From contig JAURJQ010000017.1 of assembly GCA_030832185.1 (NCBI GenBank), positions 1 through 64,000 of the forward strand: DNA of 64,000 nt. The letters are read 5' to 3'. Positions within the stretch are counted from its first letter, which is position 1. Each line of letters starts with the position of its first letter. The position numbers and the translations under genes were made by a program. The notes beneath the pieces were generated by a model. It was not told the DNA's origin. It saw only the letters and a list, made by a program, of their open reading frames with translations, and ran no database searches. This document shows positions 46,682-57,482 of this stretch, piece by piece. Source of the DNA: Chitinophagales bacterium (GTDB taxonomy: Bacteria > Bacteroidota > Bacteroidia > Chitinophagales > JADJOU01).

Positions 46682-49600
46682 TTACCTAATGATAACCATT
46701 TTCCCCCAACCATCTTTATAGTACTGTCCTAAATTTTTATTAGTTTTATTAATAGTATTAAAGTCCTTTTCATCCATCATCGGTATATCCTCACCATTAT
46801 TTTTCACCGTTACTTTAAATAGATAAACTCCGTTAGCCAGTATATCACCATATTGATCTTTCCCATCCCATGCATATTGAGTCCTATTCAATCCTAGTTT
46901 GAGAGGTCCGAGGTCTTCTTTAAAAATTTCTTTCACTACTTGCCCTCTAACATTGATGATTTGAATTTTAATAAAATCGGGAATCCTAGCACCACTAAGG
47001 GTAAAGACAAACTGGGTAGAGGTAGTAAATGGATTTGGATAATTAATTACATGCGAAATCTGATTTTTGGTAATTACCTTAAAAGAAATCTTGTAATTAA
47101 AACTTCCGTTTGGACTACTTGAGTTCCCTGCTTGGTCTCTATCCTTGACTATAAGCTGGTAGGTGCCATCTGTCAATGTAGGTTTATAATTAATCTCAGC
47201 CATATTTTTAGTCCCTGCAGTGGCTAGAGTATATTGAACTCCAGGTTGAGAGAAATAGATAGGCCTTACACTGCCGTCTGGATGGCGAAGAGATAGGTTA
47301 ATAAGCGCAGTATCATTGAGCAGTAAGTATTTATTTTCATCCTTGAGTGCAATACGAATCTGAGGATTGCTAGACACTAGTTCATTATTGATAATATGAA
47401 CTCCATCAAAGGTTACATCAAGTAAAGGATTTTCAACATCTGATTTAACAAAAAAGTTGGATTTACTAAAGTTATTAACATCGTATTTTTCTTTCTGATA
47501 GCCAGTTTTATTTGGATTAATTTCATAAGATACGGAATTGACACCTTCAAAATAGTCAGACATATTCACTTCTCGCTGTACAAGTAGAAATGAATTACCT
47601 GCTATTGGTGCAGTCTTACCCTGTAATACTTTGGATTGAGTACCTTGGCTAATCGTGATAATATAAGTTACCGAATCAAAACTATTTGAATTCAATGTTT
47701 CTACGCCAAAGTTTAATACCATTTTTTCACCGTTTTCTATCGTATCTCGCATTTTGGGCACTATACTTGATAAGTTATTCATTGCTATTTCTCCTATATC
47801 CTCATAAAATACTCTCCAATACTTTAACTGAGTAGGAGTTCTATCTATTTCATCTTTACTATTAAGCTTTAATTGTAATTGAATGTATGTATTTGGGTCT
47901 ATCCATTCTAGTGAGGTATCTAGTGAAGATTTTTGGAAGGTCTTGAGCAACTCTCTTTGTTTATTGGCTCTGATACCATATAGATCTACTAAATTGATAT
48001 CATTATTGTTAGATTCTGCTGCCTCTAGGCGGTAATTAAGTGTATGCCACCGGCGTGCTGGACCCGCATTGACAGATTCTTTGTATCCCTCTTTCCAGCT
48101 GCCATTGATAAACATATCGCCAGTTGTAAAGTTCGTATAATTAGTCCCAAGTTTCTGATATACTGGAAAAATAGGAGTATTCTTTCTGTAACCGAATATA
48201 AATGGAGCGACTACCACACTGTCTATTAACTGCTGTAAGCCAGAAAATCCTGCATTGAAAAAATAATTTTTCAAATCATTACTCCAAAATTTATAAGTTG
48301 GTCTTTTATTAGAATAAAAAATGAGATAATCACCATCGGGAACTTGATTTATAAAATTCAACATAACTGTGGACCAAGGGGTGTTGGGCAAGGGGTGGTT
48401 AGCTGGGGTCAAACCTGTATCTTGGAATACAAAGCCCTCACGCGGAATGCCGGTATAACCAAACTGAATAGAGCCATAACTTCCCCATACACGACTACCA
48501 TAATTTGAATCCATACTCTGCCGAGCTACACCTGTTTTACCATCTATCCATATCACAAAAACACCATTGGTCATTCTACCCGCTTCGCGCAATACCGCCT
48601 GCCTAGCATTATTCAGATACCACTCTGTATCGTATACATTATTACTTCCATTTATCTTAAAAGAGATACTCTTAATATCATTGACAAATTGAAATCTTCT
48701 AGTGCCGGTATATACTATATTTTTATAGGTGTTTTTGAGAAATTGATAATAGTGAGACTGATTCCAACCACTGAGTGGTTGATTGGGTATGTAAATGAAT
48801 GATGAAGCATTCCATCGATAACCTTGACCGGGAGTAGAATCTTTACTTACTCGCCAATAATATACACTTGAATCTTTAAAAACCTTGGAAGGCAGCCAGC
48901 TAAATATACTTTCGGCACTGAGTTCAGTCTTATACGTTTTTAGTTCAGGACTATTAAACTCTTCGCTAGTATCTAGCTGAAATACATAACTTCTGCTTGG
49001 TCTATTGAGCATGGTAGACATAGCGATAAGTTTAGCGGTATTATTTGACACAATAGAAAAATCGTATGGAAATATAGGAATTATATCATCGTTTTCTATT
49101 AACAAATTGCCAAGATTCTTTATCTCATTATTCGCTTCTGATATTTCTGATATACTTTCATCAGCGTCTATTTTTATATTAAAAGTATTAATGCCTAATC
49201 CAAAATTTTGATCCCGAATTGGTAAATTAAAAATAAATGTATCTTTAAAATTAGAGGCAGGCACAGACTTTTCATATATAGCTGAATTGCCATTATTCCA
49301 TCGCTCCACTTTAATTTTGATATTAGCTTGAATTGCTTTCCCAAGATTTTGAATAATAATTTTAATAGGAAATGAATCAAGAGTAGTATTCAAATTGGTG
49401 CTAGGAAATAAGACAGAACTAGCTCCTATATAGTAATCTGGTTTAGCATACTGGGTTAGAGGTACTGAAGGATCGCCATTGAGATTAAACTCCATAAATG
49501 TAGCATTCAGATAGTTCATATTGCCATTGCTAAGCAAGGATTGGCTTGCATTCTTAGCTACTTGACCTAGGGTTGTGTTATAGCTATTTTTCGACATTTC

Positions 49601-51721
49601 TTTGAAAAATGCGTCTCCATATTGGTATAATGCAGCATCTAATGCAGTGTTGGTAGTAGCTAAAAAGCCAATAGCTCCTTTGTCTTTTAAATTAATAAAA
49701 CTTTCTGAATAGGATAATCCTCCGCCATAGAAAAAGCCAGAATTACAACCATTGGCCAGAAAAATTGGATACTTACCTTTATTGGTAAATGTAGTAGGCT
49801 CTCCTATGCCTACATCGAATATAGTCGCAGATGAATGACCAAAAAAGGTAATCAACCCCACCCCTTTATTGATTCGATTGGTCAAATCCACCGAAGTAAC
49901 ATCTTCGGAAATATCAGGTCCATTTTTGAATACAGAAAATGTACGCGCACCATAAAAACTATCCTCAGCTATTTTTTCATAAGATTGCAGATTGGCTCTA
50001 TAGTCTGCCTGCTGTGCAGCTCCTGTGCCACCGCCAAGATTTATAAGCCATTTCATATATTCTTTCTTATCAGGCCTTTGATCGGCCTCAGAGGTGGCAT
50101 AATACTCTAAGTTATACTCTTTTAGTTTTTCTAAATAATTTCTTACCGTTTGTCCGTTGGTCACTGCTAGTCGACCTAGTCCCATAAATTGTATATCCGA
50201 ACCATCCATTGTAGCATAGTGATAATCGGAGGATGCATGCCCAAAGGAAGGTATAAAATTATTATTAAAATTAGCCCCTACAGAGGAAAATAAGCTTGTG
50301 ACTGTAAATCCTTTTCCTACCAATAGAGCATGCTGTGCTTTAACTCCTGGCCATGTTTGCGACCATTGTAGAAATTTACGTATAGCTATAGGATGCTTGG
50401 GCTGACCATAACCAAAAAACTCTTGTAACTCATCCATATAAGCTACTACTACCTGAAAGCCCCCCCCCGCAACGGACTCTTTGTATGCTTTATATTCTGA
50501 TATAACATCAGCTCCACTAGAGTCAAGCTGCATAGCTCTATTGGCTATCAATAAGAAGTTGCCGCGCTGTGTTAATAAATTTCCAAAATTATATTTGCTG
50601 GTGTAAGGTATGGCTAGTATCGCAGAGATAGGCGTTATAGCCAGCAGACTCTTATCATTTTGAATATTAACTAAAAAGCGATGGTGGGCAGCTGGTTGAT
50701 GAGTTGTTCTGGTATTATTGGCTAAATCATGCAAGACTATTTCATTTGTAGAATTATAATTTGTCAATTGAAATCGGACAGAACCTGCCGAAACAGGAAG
50801 AGAAAAGCTATATTGGTTTAGACTATTAAAATTAAAATTACGAGGATAGAATAACGAGGCAAAGCCAAGGCAGTAGCCATGATTATTTGCTATGAGAGGG
50901 GTTATAGACAAAGAAGTACTAGCCGAATTAATAGAACTCGCATCTAGGTCTTTTTCAAAATTAATCAGCGTACTTCCGTTCGCCGACTGAGTACCAACTG
51001 TTATGCCATTTATTCGAAACTCTAAATTATGCGATAGCTCATTACGACCAAATAATCTCACTTTCAGCTTGGCATTCACGCCTGCTATACTAACGAAATT
51101 GGGAGTAGATATAGATAGACTAGTATATGCATTCGTTCCCCAACCTTCACCGTCATCAAAAGACGGTCTGAATGAAAACTGTGTAGCTGAGTAATACCAG
51201 CGTCTACCATCACTATATACTACTTTATAATTATTGATAACATTAGCGATACAGTAATCTAAATAAGGATTTGAAATACTAGCTGTATCATTGCTATAGT
51301 CTGTCATGCGAGCATTAGTGCCAGATCGAAGGGTTATATAGTAATAATTCGTATCTTTAAACAAACTAGTAAAAGGATTCAATACATGATTAGAATCTGA
51401 ATACAAACGTTTATCTATTTCAGCATCTAGACGTTTTCCATAAAACTCAATAAAATCTGAAGCGACAGGAATACCAGTCCATGAAATGAATATTGGTATT
51501 TGCTTACCATTATTGTAGATGCATATATCTAATCCACTCGCACTTGCTATTTCAGGACAATTTACCTGTAGGTAAGAATACGGAATACGATAAATACCTG
51601 TGGTGATAATTGGAAATTTATAATGCGGCTTTACTGGATCTATCCATTCATGTCCATATGGTGCTTGACTCTGTAGAAAGTAGCTTATTAGTAAAAAAAC
51701 TAGTAGTAAAAAAAATTTCAT
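46682..51721 (-). CDS. porU2: Putative type IX secretion system sortase PorU2 (C25 peptidase family)
   Basis: 1679 residues. The signal peptide is MKFFLLLVFLLISYFLQSQA. The centre holds a gingipain-type C25 domain with putative catalytic His629 (FFGHSSA) and Cys659 (LANGCNSG), both present. A CARDB-like section (about 760-850) follows, then further beta-rich domains. Near the end are NYPNPFTTSTQF and WDGKDQYGDILANGVYLF, a FlgD/CTD-like beta-sandwich followed by about 45 more residues. It is longer than classical PorU (about 1100-1300 aa), fitting the PorU2 group. porV2 lies 4 bp upstream. A G9 tract lies at 50460-50468. Confidence 0.85.
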   Translation of the reverse strand: MKFFLLLVFLLISYFLQSQAPYGHEWIDPVKPHYKFPIITTGIYRIPYSYLQVNCPEIASASGLDICIYNNGKQIPIFISWTGIPVASDFIEFYGKRLDAEIDKRLYSDSNHVLNPFTSLFKDTNYYYITLRSGTNARMTDYSNDTASISNPYLDYCIANVINNYKVVYSDGRRWYYSATQFSFRPSFDDGEGWGTNAYTSLSISTPNFVSIAGVNAKLKVRLFGRNELSHNLEFRINGITVGTQSANGSTLINFEKDLDASSINSASTSLSITPLIANNHGYCLGFASLFYPRNFNFNSLNQYSFSLPVSAGSVRFQLTNYNSTNEIVLHDLANNTRTTHQPAAHHRFLVNIQNDKSLLAITPISAILAIPYTSKYNFGNLLTQRGNFLLIANRAMQLDSSGADVISEYKAYKESVAGGGFQVVVAYMDELQEFFGYGQPKHPIAIRKFLQWSQTWPGVKAQHALLVGKGFTVTSLFSSVGANFNNNFIPSFGHASSDYHYATMDGSDIQFMGLGRLAVTNGQTVRNYLEKLKEYNLEYYATSEADQRPDKKEYMKWLINLGGGTGAAQQADYRANLQSYEKIAEDSFYGARTFSVFKNGPDISEDVTSVDLTNRINKGVGLITFFGHSSATIFDVGIGEPTTFTNKGKYPIFLANGCNSGFFYGGGLSYSESFINLKDKGAIGFLATTNTALDAALYQYGDAFFKEMSKNSYNTTLGQVAKNASQSLLSNGNMNYLNATFMEFNLNGDPSVPLTQYAKPDYYIGASSVLFPSTNLNTTLDSFPIKIIIQNLGKAIQANIKIKVERWNNGNSAIYEKSVPASNFKDTFIFNLPIRDQNFGLGINTFNIKIDADESISEISEANNEIKNLGNLLIENDDIIPIFPYDFSIVSNNTAKLIAMSTMLNRPSRSYVFQLDTSEEFNSPELKTYKTELSAESIFSWLPSKVFKDSSVYYWRVSKDSTPGQGYRWNASSFIYIPNQPLSGWNQSHYYQFLKNTYKNIVYTGTRRFQFVNDIKSISFKINGSNNVYDTEWYLNNARQAVLREAGRMTNGVFVIWIDGKTGVARQSMDSNYGSRVWGSYGSIQFGYTGIPREGFVFQDTGLTPANHPLPNTPWSTVMLNFINQVPDGDYLIFYSNKRPTYKFWSNDLKNYFFNAGFSGLQQLIDSVVVAPFIFGYRKNTPIFPVYQKLGTNYTNFTTGDMFINGSWKEGYKESVNAGPARRWHTLNYRLEAAESNNNDINLVDLYGIRANKQRELLKTFQKSSLDTSLEWIDPNTYIQLQLKLNSKDEIDRTPTQLKYWRVFYEDIGEIAMNNLSSIVPKMRDTIENGEKMVLNFGVETLNSNSFDSVTYIITISQGTQSKVLQGKTAPIAGNSFLLVQREVNMSDYFEGVNSVSYEINPNKTGYQKEKYDVNNFSKSNFFVKSDVENPLLDVTFDGVHIINNELVSSNPQIRIALKDENKYLLLNDTALINLSLRHPDGSVRPIYFSQPGVQYTLATAGTKNMAEINYKPTLTDGTYQLIVKDRDQAGNSSSPNGSFNYKISFKVITKNQISHVINYPNPFTTSTQFVFTLSGARIPDFIKIQIINVRGQVVKEIFKEDLGPLKLGLNRTQYAWDGKDQYGDILANGVYLFKVTVKNNGEDIPMMDEKDFNTINKTNKNLGQYYKDGWGKMVIIR

Positions 51722-51725
51722 AGAC

Positions 51726-52883
51726 TCAATCTAGCTTTACGGGCACATTATCATTACTATTTGGATTACCAATATCTATCGGAGTGGTCTCAGGAGATAC
51801 ATTTGGCTTGCTATACTTATCCTTTTTATTAAAGCGATAGGCTAGGGAAAAAACGTGCGAATATAGCCCTACTCCTGAATTGGCCACATTATTATAACTA
51901 TAATCAATATCGAATTGATTTAGTCTAAACCCTGCCCCTAAAGACGGCATAAAACTCATATACTCTTCGCCTAAGCTGTTTGTTGCCTTGGTAAAATTGC
52001 TTAAGCCGAATCGAATGAAAGCTATATGGTAAATATCCAACTCCCCCCCCATAGTTATATCTATACTTACCGGACCTGCGAGTAAGACGTTTCTTTTATC
52101 CGTATAAAGTGACACCTTACCTACAGGCGAGAACTGCAGGTTTTTACCTTTCCCAAATAAAAAATTATACTGACCTCCGAAATGTATAGAAGGCAAGGTA
52201 ATTTCACTCGAAGAACTTGGTATTTCATTACCTGTAGCTGCAAATACTTTTTTCGTAGTATCATCAAATGAGAAATTCCAACTAGAAAAAGTGGTTGTAA
52301 TATCCTGAAGGAAAATACCTAATCGATATTTATCCGTGGTATACTGAATGCCTGCATCTATACCAAAACCCCACGCACCTGCAAATGAGCCATAATCGCG
52401 TTTGATAATCTTAGCATTACCTCCATAGGATAGTCCTTGAGTATCCCTCATTCTTCCTCCGAAACTGAGAAAAAGCGCCATATCTGAAATAGAAAAGGAG
52501 GTAATTTTATCATAATTAATACTTCCATCTGGATTATAGAGCTGAATAGTATTAGGAATATTGTCTATACCGAAACGTATGAGACTTACACCTATATTTT
52601 TTTTATATTTAAGAGGGAAAATGACTCCTGCATAGTCGAAATTGGCTATACCAGCAAAGTAGGAATTGTGCATGGCAGATACCGCTACTCTGTCAAAAGC
52701 TCCTACGCCCGCTGGATTATAAAAAACCGTAGCTGGGTCAGATTCCGAGGATGTCAATGCACCACCAGTTCCTAGATACTTTCCTCCCACTCCTATTTTC
52801 AGAAACTCATTGGAATATTTTCTTACTTGAGAATAAGACACCTGAAAATATAATAGACTTAGGCAAATTAAAAAATTTCTCAC
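51726..52883 (-). CDS. porV2: PorV2, PorV/PorQ-family outer membrane protein
   Basis: 385 residues. The signal peptide (MRNFLICLSLLYFQVSYSQ) leads to FLKIGVGGKYLGTGGALTSSESDPATVFYNPAGVG, the opening hatch pattern of PorV/PorQ barrels. Beta strands run to HVFSLAYRFNKKDKY, followed by a short Pro/Asn-rich tail. PorV shuttles type IX cargo to PorU; pairing with porU2 here suggests a parallel attachment module. It starts with GTG and overlaps the gene before it by 4 bp. A G8 tract lies at 52043-52050. Confidence 0.85.
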   Translation of the reverse strand: MRNFLICLSLLYFQVSYSQVRKYSNEFLKIGVGGKYLGTGGALTSSESDPATVFYNPAGVGAFDRVAVSAMHNSYFAGIANFDYAGVIFPLKYKKNIGVSLIRFGIDNIPNTIQLYNPDGSINYDKITSFSISDMALFLSFGGRMRDTQGLSYGGNAKIIKRDYGSFAGAWGFGIDAGIQYTTDKYRLGIFLQDITTTFSSWNFSFDDTTKKVFAATGNEIPSSSSEITLPSIHFGGQYNFLFGKGKNLQFSPVGKVSLYTDKRNVLLAGPVSIDITMGGELDIYHIAFIRFGLSNFTKATNSLGEEYMSFMPSLGAGFRLNQFDIDYSYNNVANSGVGLYSHVFSLAYRFNKKDKYSKPNVSPETTPIDIGNPNSNDNVPVKLD

Positions 52884-53647
52884 GCTATGACTCTATATTG
52901 TTTTACACTATCAAATAACATATCAAAATCTATTTTCTGTTTTTGTACCTTTATGATATTTGCAAATTCATTTACTATACTATCGTTCAAGTCCCATTGA
53001 CTAATTTTTCCAGTGACCATATGCAGCGATTTGACTAAATTAGATTCCATGGAATAGAAGCCTAAAAATCTCCTAGCCAAAAAACACTCTAATGAATACA
53101 AATATAGCCCAATTTCTTCATTCTCTCCTACAATATTTCTTAGGAAATTGCTCAGAATAGTTATATCAATCTTAGCTAAGTTGTCATTTATTTCTAGCAC
53201 ATGGGTCGGATGTCGATCCAATATCATGTTATCTAAAATCAACTCGTATAATACATGTGAAATGAGAAACTTTCTTTTCAATAAAATTAGGGAGTCACTC
53301 AAATTCATAGCCTCTTCTATCTGCTGCATGCCTAATTTAAAAAAAGATAAGTCATGAAAGTAAGCATCATCTTGATAATGCTGGATAATTCCTCTCCAAA
53401 GCATTAGTTCGAGAGTATTCAAGGAAGTTGGAACATATGATCGAAAATAGCGGTTATATAAAAACGAAAAGTTTTTCAATATATCGGGCAGAAATACCCC
53501 CAGTGTATAGTAAGGATTTTTCTCCTTAAGACATAATAATGGGATATATAATTCACAAGCTAGATTATAATATGAACTATAATGAGCATTTGGTCCAAAA
53601 ATTTCCGCCTGGACATAAATGGTTAATATCAAAATTAACCTCAACAA
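52880..53647 (-). CDS. Unrecognised helical protein, possibly ACP-phosphodiesterase/HD-like
   Basis: Up to 255 residues from the TTG at 53647; the true start is uncertain because the first 71 bp overlap the preceding gene and there is no ATG. Mostly helical. HYSSYYNLACELY, GVFLPDILKN and RGIIQHYQDDAYFHDLSFF supply spaced His and Asp residues reminiscent of AcpH/HD-fold phosphodiesterases, where an early His, a G-x-x-L/F-P-D motif and an H-x3-D cluster bind metal. I do not claim that family. It overlaps porV2 by 4 bp. Confidence 0.55.
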   Translation of the reverse strand: MLRLILILTIYVQAEIFGPNAHYSSYYNLACELYIPLLCLKEKNPYYTLGVFLPDILKNFSFLYNRYFRSYVPTSLNTLELMLWRGIIQHYQDDAYFHDLSFFKLGMQQIEEAMNLSDSLILLKRKFLISHVLYELILDNMILDRHPTHVLEINDNLAKIDITILSNFLRNIVGENEEIGLYLYSLECFLARRFLGFYSMESNLVKSLHMVTGKISQWDLNDSIVNEFANIIKVQKQKIDFDMLFDSVKQYRVIA

Positions 53648-54464
53648 GCTTGACCTCCTTAAGAAAATCTAATGCTATTTTCAACTTAGGATAAGGCACA
53701 TCTGGCAGATAATTCCAGTCAGTATCTTGTATACACTGTTTCATATCGATTACAGAAAACTCGAGGTAGGTGGAAATATAGTCAATAGAGTCTAATGTTA
53801 TCTGCTTTAACTTATAAGTATAATCAGAGATAAGTTTTAAGAATAAAATGACAGCATTTTCATGATTATTTAGAATATCTTCATGCACCACTATACTAAA
53901 CGATGCCCAAGGAGTTGGGACTTCCCCAATTTTCTTTAAAGTGCCTCTATCGACATATGGTTTTGTCATAAAACGCTCCCATAGAAATAACTTATCAGGA
54001 TTCTGATTAAACTCATTTATTGCTCTAGAAAAATTAGCCACTTCTATGAATTCTACTTGATCCATAGACCACCTTTCTCGCTAACAAAACCTATATGACA
54101 TGAGGTGTGAGCCACTACCAAATCGGCTTATATAGAAGCTAGGTTGCTTTACGTCGTTTAATGATTGTAAAATAGAACCTGCTCCACAATACACTCCCCA
54201 GTGAAGAGGAGAATTTACATAAACTTGCACTATTTTAAATGAGTTCTGATCTGCTATAGCCTTTGCGTCACCCTCTGTGAGAAGTACACCAATATCTATT
54301 TGCTTTTCCACGAGAGCTTCGACGAGATCACCTGTACCTCCATTATAGTATTTCCAGTTTAGATCTAAATTCTTGGCGCAGAATACACCCTCATCTATAG
54401 CCTTGCGAAAAAGAAGATTAAAATGCTCTGGAACACCGCCAATGTTGAATGCTAAAGATTTCAC
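53577..54464 (-). pseudogene. Solute-binding (SsuA/THI5-like) protein gene interrupted by an in-frame amber codon
   Basis: Two open segments, 54464-54081 and 54065-53577, lie in the same reading frame and are separated only by a TAG at 54081-54083 plus five sense codons (RERWS). Together they make about 295 residues, the usual size of the stand-alone SsuA/THI5-like proteins of Bacteroidota: GGVPEHFNLLFRKAIDEGV, YYNGGTGDLVEAL, DIGVLLTEGDAKAI and FGSGSHLMSY before the stop, and LFLWERFMTKPYVDRG with PTPWASFSIVVHED after it. No other damage is evident. No signal peptide and no ABC permease or ATPase genes nearby. Confidence 0.75.
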
Positions 54465-55326: not shown

Positions 55327-55977
55327 TTACTCTTCATTCGCTTTCTTGCGAGCTTCTTCTAATTCAGTTTTAAAAACTACATCCCAGAATAGATTACTGA
55401 CACCAAACCCAGCTTCAGGGTGCACATAATGATGAGCCATATGATGCTTTTTCAATTTTTCAAAATACTTGTTTTGCCACTTCGCATGATGAAGAGCAAA
55501 ATGCATCATATCATATACTAAGTAACCTGATACCATACCAGAAAATGCAGCAAGAGATTCGCCGCCGCCCCCAAAAGCTAAATTGAAGAAAACAAAAAAT
55601 GGAATAGCTAAAACAATAGACATAATAGGGGGCATAACCAAACGCTTAGAATCATTGGGATAGTCGTGATGCACGCCATGCATTAAAAAACTAATTCTTT
55701 TACCAAAATCAGTTGTCGGATGGTAATGAAATACAAATCTGTGAACGAAATATTCTGATAACGTCCATATAAAAAGACCAATTAGAAAAAGAACTGGAAC
55801 TTTTATCCAGCCAATCTGCTGGACAAATAAAGCTTGATATAAACAGTATATAACAACTGGAACCCAGACAATAAGGGGGGTCGCCCAGTGAATTCTTGAC
55901 ATTCGATCCAATATTGGATTATCAAACATTCTTATTGTTTCATCTTTTAAGGAAACGAAATTTTTTTGTTGGCTCAT
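55327..55977 (-). CDS. Fatty-acid hydroxylase / sterol desaturase family membrane enzyme
   Basis: About 216 residues from the ATG at 55977. A di-iron membrane oxygenase with clustered histidine boxes: HRFVFHYH, HGVHHDYPND, HFALHH and KHHMAHHYVHP. The pattern and the WTLSEYFVHRFVFHYHP stretch resemble fatty-acid 2-hydroxylases, which would 2-hydroxylate acyl chains of sphingolipids or other Bacteroidota lipids. The substrate is inferred. A longer frame starting at TTG 56001 is rejected because that codon lies in the promoter box. Confidence 0.85.
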   Translation of the reverse strand: MSQQKNFVSLKDETIRMFDNPILDRMSRIHWATPLIVWVPVVIYCLYQALFVQQIGWIKVPVLFLIGLFIWTLSEYFVHRFVFHYHPTTDFGKRISFLMHGVHHDYPNDSKRLVMPPIMSIVLAIPFFVFFNLAFGGGGESLAAFSGMVSGYLVYDMMHFALHHAKWQNKYFEKLKKHHMAHHYVHPEAGFGVSNLFWDVVFKTELEEARKKANEE

Positions 55978-55998
55978 TTTATACGAAATTATCAAGGA

Positions 55999-56006
55999 CA
56001 AATTTA
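55999..56006 (-). promoter_or_regulatory. Promoter -7 element of the hydroxylase-coaD unit
   Basis: TAAATTTG (minus strand) fits TAnnTTTG, 22 nt before the ATG at 55977. Its last three bases are the rejected upstream TTG start. Confidence 0.55.
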
Positions 56007-56115: not shown

Positions 56116-56685
56116 CTAAAATGATTTTGCATCAAGTTCCCTAGGATCTTGCTTCCAAATCTTATACTTAATTTCAATATCCCTTGGGGCATATACTACT
56201 AATGGCAAAACGCTAATATATTTTAGCAATTCCGTTTTTCCTGAAGGCACATTCTTCATTTTGGTAATATTATCCCCACAACTTATTTTAGTAGATATGA
56301 TTTGGGCATTTGACTTGAAGATATAATAGGGAAAGCCATGTACTTCGAGAGTCTTTAACTCAAAATCACCTAGAAGAAAATACTTGTTACAATTATCCAC
56401 TTCCTGATTCTTTACAGCATACATTTCCACTTTGTAAAGAGTCTCGTCTACTCTTGGCTCAAGGAAAATGGCATGCTTCACTAGCTTATCAATAGGAGGA
56501 AAAATAGTCAAATCATGCATAACAGTAATGGGTGCAGAAAGCGATGGATCTATTCCTATAAGCTCTGGTTTTACAGCAGATTTTGGAGCATCTTCTTCCA
56601 CTTTCTTGTCTATACTAACAGACTGCGCTTTAGATGTAGCTGATAAAATTAGTAGAGCTGACAATAATAAAACATGATAATTCAT
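56116..56685 (-). CDS. Ecotin-type serine protease inhibitor, predicted P1 lysine
   Basis: 189 residues with a signal peptide (LLLSALLILSATSKAQ), hence periplasmic or secreted. From residue 60 it follows E. coli ecotin closely: IFPPIDKLVKHAIFL, DETLYKVEMY, VDNCNKYFLLG, TLEVHGFPYYIF, then STKISCGDN, LLKYISVLPLVVYAPRDIEIKYKIW. C99 and C136 match the ecotin disulfide. The reactive-site Met84 of E. coli ecotin (S-T-M-M-A-C) aligns with K133 (S-T-K-I-S-C), predicting preference for trypsin-like proteases. A 30-residue N-terminal extension after the signal is extra. It lies 20 bp behind an SDR gene. Confidence 0.88.
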   Translation of the reverse strand: MNYHVLLLSALLILSATSKAQSVSIDKKVEEDAPKSAVKPELIGIDPSLSAPITVMHDLTIFPPIDKLVKHAIFLEPRVDETLYKVEMYAVKNQEVDNCNKYFLLGDFELKTLEVHGFPYYIFKSNAQIISTKISCGDNITKMKNVPSGKTELLKYISVLPLVVYAPRDIEIKYKIWKQDPRELDAKSF

Positions 56686-56705: not shown

Positions 56706-57482
56706 TTATAGACTGCTTGTTCTGCCGCCGTCTACCGGAATATTAATCCCAGTAATATAAGAGGCTTCATCCGACACTAGAAATGCTACAGCGGCAGCTA
56801 CTTCTTCAGGCGTTGCAAAACGCTTCATTGGGACTTCATTTTTCATCTCCTCTTCCACTTTTTCTTGGGGTAGGTTCAATTTATTAGACTTATTCTCAAT
56901 AATTGCGCTCAATCTGTCAGTAGCTGTAGCTCCAGGGAGTACATTGTTTACAGTTATTCCATGCACAGCTAATTCATTAGCTAGCGTTTTAGCCCAGTTA
57001 GCTACTGCAGCGCGAATTGTATTTGATACCCCTAGATTAGGCAATGGCTGCTTTACAGAAGTAGAAATTATATTAACTATTCTGCCGAATTTATTCTCAA
57101 TCATAGCAGGCGTTAAAAGCATAGCCAGAGAATGATTTACAAGTAAATGTTGCTTGAATGCTGACTCAAATTCTTCGTTTTTAGCAGAAGTAATAGGTCC
57201 TGCTGGCGGACCTCCAGAATTATTGACTAAAATAAGATAAGGACTCCCTATTTCATGAGCCTTTGCTTCGACTTTTTGACATAGTAAATCAATATTATTT
57301 GTATCTACTGCAATGTATCGATGAACTTGATTATTCGGGCTCGGTAGTTTACTGCATGCTAGCTTCAAATCTTCCTCATTTCTAGCTAAAAGGGTAACTG
57401 CGTATCCTTTTTCTGCTAATTTCATAGCACTTGCATATCCTATACCTTTACTTCCTCCGCAAACTAAAGCTGATTTAACCAT
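56706..57482 (-). CDS. SDR-family oxidoreductase with atypical active site
   Basis: A 258-residue classical-length SDR: cofactor motif GGSKGIG at 9-15, LVNNSGGPPAGP, the catalytic-strand serine S140 (IVNIIS) and the C-terminal ITGINIPVDGGR. Where Y-x3-K should stand, 13 residues after S140, the sequence is S153-N-T-I-R157, so both catalytic Tyr and Lys are replaced. Such SNxxR variants occur in some FabG-like proteins. Function is therefore unclear: it may bind NAD(P) without normal catalysis. A promoter box precedes it, and ecotin follows in the same unit. Confidence 0.85.
   Translation of the reverse strand: MVKSALVCGGSKGIGYASAMKLAEKGYAVTLLARNEEDLKLACSKLPSPNNQVHRYIAVDTNNIDLLCQKVEAKAHEIGSPYLILVNNSGGPPAGPITSAKNEEFESAFKQHLLVNHSLAMLLTPAMIENKFGRIVNIISTSVKQPLPNLGVSNTIRAAVANWAKTLANELAVHGITVNNVLPGATATDRLSAIIENKSNKLNLPQEKVEEEMKNEVPMKRFATPEEVAAAVAFLVSDEASYITGINIPVDGGRTSSL

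Follow-up and report, generated by a model that had tools for sequence, protein, structure and literature searches.

A natural ecotin with lysine at P1 and a changed secondary binding site, shared across a genus of Chitinophagales

Ecotin of Escherichia coli (Pfam PF03974, MEROPS family I11) has a methionine at the P1 position of its 80s loop (Met84) and a secondary binding site, site 2, in its 60s and 100s loops. Natural ecotins with a basic P1 residue are listed in the 2023 review of De Meyer and Carlier, with lysine in Burkholderia glumae and arginine in Tatumella and Rhizobium (PMC9904509). The same review already reports ecotins in Bacteroidetes, and acknowledges as a gap the targets of ecotin outside mammals. 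The extent to which P1 and site 2 stand in for each other has so far been studied with laboratory mutants. In a 2022 study of the ecotin dimer, R108 and N110 were selected to represent the conserved site-2 core (PMC9136129). The R108A/N110A replacement crippled ecotin with P1 Met, and M84R largely compensated for it in inhibition of the lectin pathway. With M84R, trypsin-like MASPs were bound with an affinity 17- to 7000-fold higher (PMC9136129). The Y69F/D70P replacement in E. coli ecotin strongly boosts trypsin inhibition (PMC3701661).

The window analysed here, a stretch of 64,000 nucleotides, belongs to the 2.2 Mb genome of a Bacteroidota member whose nearest named relative is Saprospirales bacterium CE-Oct18-152. 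The genome contains a single ecotin gene.

56116-56685, minus strand: ecotin gene, 189 aa (PF03974, E 7.6e-27; PDB ecotins by sequence and fold)
56386-56391, minus strand: C99-N100, first disulfide cysteine (ecotin C50) and start of the 50s loop, from alignments

The gene is one uninterrupted ORF with an ATG start and no internal stop. Its product scores 94.1 bits against the Pfam Ecotin family (gathering cut-off 22.2), and its sequence relatives in the PDB are solved ecotins only (E 5e-22). The AlphaFold2 model has a mean pLDDT of 81, with a core above 90, and superimposes on an ecotin crystal chain with a TM-score of up to 0.92. A fold search with this model returned 29 ecotin chains at E < 1e-8 and no non-ecotin fold at E < 0.001. 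The Pfam match, the PDB sequence matches and the fold all agree with the preliminary description of the protein as an ecotin homologue. Thus, the intact gene encodes a genuine ecotin of MEROPS family I11. As first stated the find is an ordinary one, an additional member of an already known family. Identity to E. coli ecotin is 34%, and the score against the NCBIfam ecotin equivalog NF002987 (PRK03719) is 100.8 bits for a cut-off of 162. The two cysteines pointed out earlier correspond in the alignment to E. coli C50 (C99) and C87 (C136) and are invariant in the genus; their disulfide is predicted on this basis. Ecotins form homodimers by swapping their C-terminal arms; here this arm, IWKQDPRELDAKSF, is present and differs from the E. 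coli arm, the model being that of a monomer only.

56623-56685, minus strand: N-terminal signal peptide, about residues 1-21, from reading of the sequence
56500-56622, minus strand: N-terminal extension, about residues 22-62, from the genus alignment and pLDDT

As for E. coli ecotin, export by a signal peptide is predicted, with putative cleavage near SKAQ-S. Reading of the sequence revealed neither a lipobox cysteine nor a T9SS tail, and the secreted protein would most likely reside in the periplasm. Its N-terminus is longer than that of E. coli ecotin. The extension of about 30 residues noticed earlier ahead of the ecotin core is real, though variable within the genus and poorly modelled. 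Model confidence is low up to residue 45, with pLDDT mostly below 50 from residue 18 to residue 45, and both length and sequence of the extension differ among the four genus species. A conserved role for this region was rejected on these grounds.

56278-56295, minus strand: 80s loop S131-T132-K133-I134-S135-C136, with K133 as P1, from sequence and alignments
56287-56289, minus strand: codon AAA of K133 (P1, ecotin M84), from the genus alignment and codon comparison

K133 aligns with Met84 of E. coli ecotin (STK-I-S-C versus STM-M-A-C), three residues ahead of the second cysteine. T132 aligns with T83, which is invariant in the 119 other ecotins. By alignment, position and spacing bear out the assignment of K133 as P1 in place of Met. 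A structure prediction had been proposed as a check, and in the model K133 does fall in a non-strand stretch of the 80s loop, assigned as loop by DSSP, right after strand 129-131 and within a high-confidence block. Alignment and modelled secondary structure together place K133 at the putative tip of the loop. All four genus ecotins have a lysine at P1, encoded by AAA or AAG.

The P1 residue was compared in 119 natural ecotins sampled outside the genus. It is L in 49, M in 45, R in 15, K in 5, Q in 4 and N in 1, and is thus basic in 20, in a sample with biased frequencies: of the sequences in the scanned collection that fit the pattern Y[NIM]Sx[LM]P[IL]V[VIF]Y, the 80 that best matched the present ecotin were retained, and only the best 30 loci were taken from one other, ecotin-rich family. 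In these counts L003 and L014 represent one genome, and L012, a divergent second copy, was left out. Among those with a basic P1 are ecotins of Tamlana, of Xenorhabdus innexi, of Pseudomonas sp. PH1b and of planctomycete loci. At least 12 switches between a basic and a non-basic P1 are required on an ecotin tree that was built without the P1 column and has few columns and many unresolved forks. The idea that a lysine at P1 is unusual was rejected, because basic P1 residues recur both in our surveys and in the literature (PMC9904509). Its novelty in a Bacteroidota is not supported either, both points having been published (PMC9904509). Known and recurrent, the lysine adds little by itself, and the feature of interest is the rebuilding of site 2 across the genus. 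A lysine at P1 suits the acidic S1 pocket of trypsin-like proteases. From the established P1-S1 rules and the measurements on M84R ecotin (PMC9136129), we infer that the K133 ecotin would be biased to proteases of this type.

56323-56343, minus strand: 60s loop V115-Y121 (VHGFPYY), with W67 replaced by H116, Y69 by F118 and D70 by P119, from alignments
56206-56223, minus strand: 100s loop K155-Y-I-S-V-L160, with R108 replaced by K, N110 by I157 and K112 by V159, from alignments

The changes in these two loops were not remarked on in the preliminary description. Instead of the usual site-2 set W67, R108, N110 and K112, which family membership does not require, this ecotin has H116, K155, I157 and V159. 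Position 67 is H or Y in the genus and W in 116 of the 119 other ecotins. N110, found in all but one of these (118/119), is replaced by I, M or V. Position 112 is V, M or L, as compared with K or R in 114/119, and R108 is replaced by K in three of the four genus species. D70 is P in all four. The residues at positions 69 and 70 are F-P in two species and Y-P in the other two.

Compared with the natural basic-P1 ecotins (PMC9904509), the genus ecotin shares the basic P1 residue. In contrast, the sampled ecotins of this kind retain W67 and N110 in site 2, with one Tatumella species as the only published case in the alignment. The engineered M84R/R108A/N110A ecotin (PMC9136129) also combines a basic P1 with an altered site 2. 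The genus ecotin likewise joins an invariant basic P1 to changes in site 2, which is suggestive of a parallel with these mutants. It differs from them in being natural, in having Lys rather than Arg at P1 and in having a hydrophobic residue rather than Ala at position 110. F and P at positions 69 and 70 recall the Y69F/D70P mutant (PMC3701661, PDB 1EZU). This parallel is weak because P70 occurs elsewhere too, in 10/119 other ecotins. With F-P in only 2/4 genus species as well, it is no signature of trypsin targeting.

N110 is lost in the genus although it is conserved and used in many complexes, so the affinity could be below that of E. coli ecotin. Site 2 of the genus ecotins may fit some other partner. 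Tentatively, and with less than even confidence, we propose a natural subtype in which the two-site clamp would have been traded for basic-P1, primary-site-driven inhibition, or in which site 2 would have been re-aimed at proteases whose surface differs from that of the animal S1 enzymes. If true, this subtype would be the natural counterpart of the engineered ecotins with a basic P1 and a weakened site 2. The value of the genus ecotin lies in being a natural case for gauging the degree to which P1 and site 2 can replace one another. A limited search of the open-access literature found no earlier description of a genus-wide basic P1 with a rebuilt site 2.

Two other readings of these changes were considered. 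The P1 and site-2 changes might represent drift in a tolerant, plain broad-range inhibitor whose range has not narrowed. Drift would agree with the free variation of P1 across the family (M, L, R, K, Q) and with the long stem branch of the genus (1.24 changes per column). It is nevertheless unlikely, as K133 is kept in four species despite saturated synonymous sites and the site-2 positions are almost invariant in other ecotins. Alternatively, inhibition may have been lost in favour of another role, such as the envelope or matrix binding reported for Pseudomonas aeruginosa ecotin and Psl. The disappearance of conserved site-2 contacts and the variable N-terminal extension point in this direction; the retention of the 80s loop, of both cysteines and of a P1 residue of functional type makes such a loss very improbable.

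Our preferred explanation, which as a whole we consider probable, is that of a secreted, P1-driven inhibitor of trypsin-like (S1) proteases in which the primary site dominates and the target is external. After export, most likely to the periplasm, the 80s loop would be offered in a substrate-like (canonical) manner to trypsin-fold (S1) serine proteases, with K133 as P1 favouring those with an acidic S1 pocket. Four contact residues of site 2, in the 60s and 100s loops, have changed against a constant basic P1, and for this reason the primary site probably contributes more to binding in the genus than it does in E. coli ecotin. The target would most likely be an external protease that reaches the periplasm, from a grazer, a predator, a competitor or dead biomass. 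The lineage appears to be free-living, and this target is probably not a mammalian protease.

The host's own proteases were also considered as targets. Pfam identifies two trypsin-fold proteases in the genome, L097 and L098. L097 is an ordinary Do-family protease. HtrA/Do was set aside as a target because, according to the review, the proteases of E. coli itself are not targets of its ecotin (PMC9904509).

L098:826-2466, contig C24 of the same genome: 546-aa protease similar to Achromobacter protease I, a lysyl endopeptidase (E 2.7e-36)

L098 carries a T9SS tail. The catalytic triad (His, Asp, Ser) of Achromobacter protease I and Asp225 of its S1 pocket have aligned counterparts in L098. The protease is found in all genus members and is conserved through the family. 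Self-protection, in which ecotin would restrain this lysyl-endopeptidase-like enzyme while it crosses the periplasm on its way to type IX export, accords with these features, and a P1 lysine fits a Lys-cutting enzyme. However, L098 has Y and T (alignment reading) where the Achromobacter enzyme has its lysine-pocket helpers W169 and H210, the long N-terminal region of L098 could serve as its own propeptide, and the two genes are unlinked. In the order, 150/299 genomes have the protease and 7/299 have ecotin; nearly all of the former lack ecotin, which argues that the protease normally manages without the inhibitor. Among 30 ecotin-bearing Bacteroidota, it occurs in 6/11 with a basic P1 and in 8/19 with another P1, about the background level in each case and with no association. 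Of the earlier suggestion that ecotin guards against a secreted protease of its own host, the existence of a candidate stands, but this candidate accompanies neither ecotin nor a basic P1 more often than background. Self-protection was therefore rejected as the main reading and is kept as a quite unlikely rival. The same lack of association favours an external target.

Pfam searches, free of the bias of the pattern scan, gave the distribution of ecotin. The gene is carried by each of the four genus members with a completeness of at least 90%. It was not found in a 62%-complete genus member, nor in one family member from another genus (85% complete). In the order, four of the seven ecotin-bearing genomes are of this genus, and outside the family ecotin is found in 3/293 genomes. 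The phylum and class samples gave 5/395 and 3/395, and one other family of the class 161/296.

56706-57482, minus strand: short-chain dehydrogenase gene, upstream of ecotin with a gap of 20 bp, order conserved in the genus
55327-56001, minus strand: fatty-acid-hydroxylase family gene, downstream neighbour of ecotin, conserved in the genus

The order dehydrogenase, ecotin, hydroxylase is found in 4/4 genus genomes, with a gap of about 20 bp to the dehydrogenase gene. coaD follows the hydroxylase gene in the three genomes whose contig extends so far. Co-transcription of ecotin with the upstream dehydrogenase gene is likely; a promoter scan gave no more matches than shuffled sequences did. A recent horizontal arrival is not supported, because the same neighbours flank ecotin in all four genomes. 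The tree places the genus ecotin among mostly Bacteroidota ecotins (96*), with many forks unresolved. Comparison with the nearest species gave a dN of 0.055 for a dS of 0.24, hence the gene is under purifying selection and the protein is maintained. With the other two genus species, synonymous sites are near or past saturation. Ecotin evolves faster than its neighbours (52-61% versus 74-89% identity to distant species), which is not unusual for secreted proteins.

Further observations concern the window and other ecotins. About 3 kb from ecotin, 46682-52883 (minus strand) encodes a PorU2-like type IX secretion sortase (1679 aa) and an adjoining PorV2-like protein. At 53577-54464 (minus strand), two ORFs of 127 and 162 aa each match one half of a substrate-binding-like protein (294 aa) that is whole in a genus member (L095:8104-8988), with 70% and 75% identity. 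The in-frame stop between them reflects either a broken gene or a sequence error. In the ecotin-rich family (that of G496), some genomes have second or further divergent ecotin copies (L012 in G550; L127), and G1229 has up to four ecotin matches. Finally, planctomycete and some proteobacterial ecotins have V or T at position 87 in place of the second disulfide cysteine and form one clade (L027, L033, L048, L058, L070, L075, L089, L037, L042 and L063).
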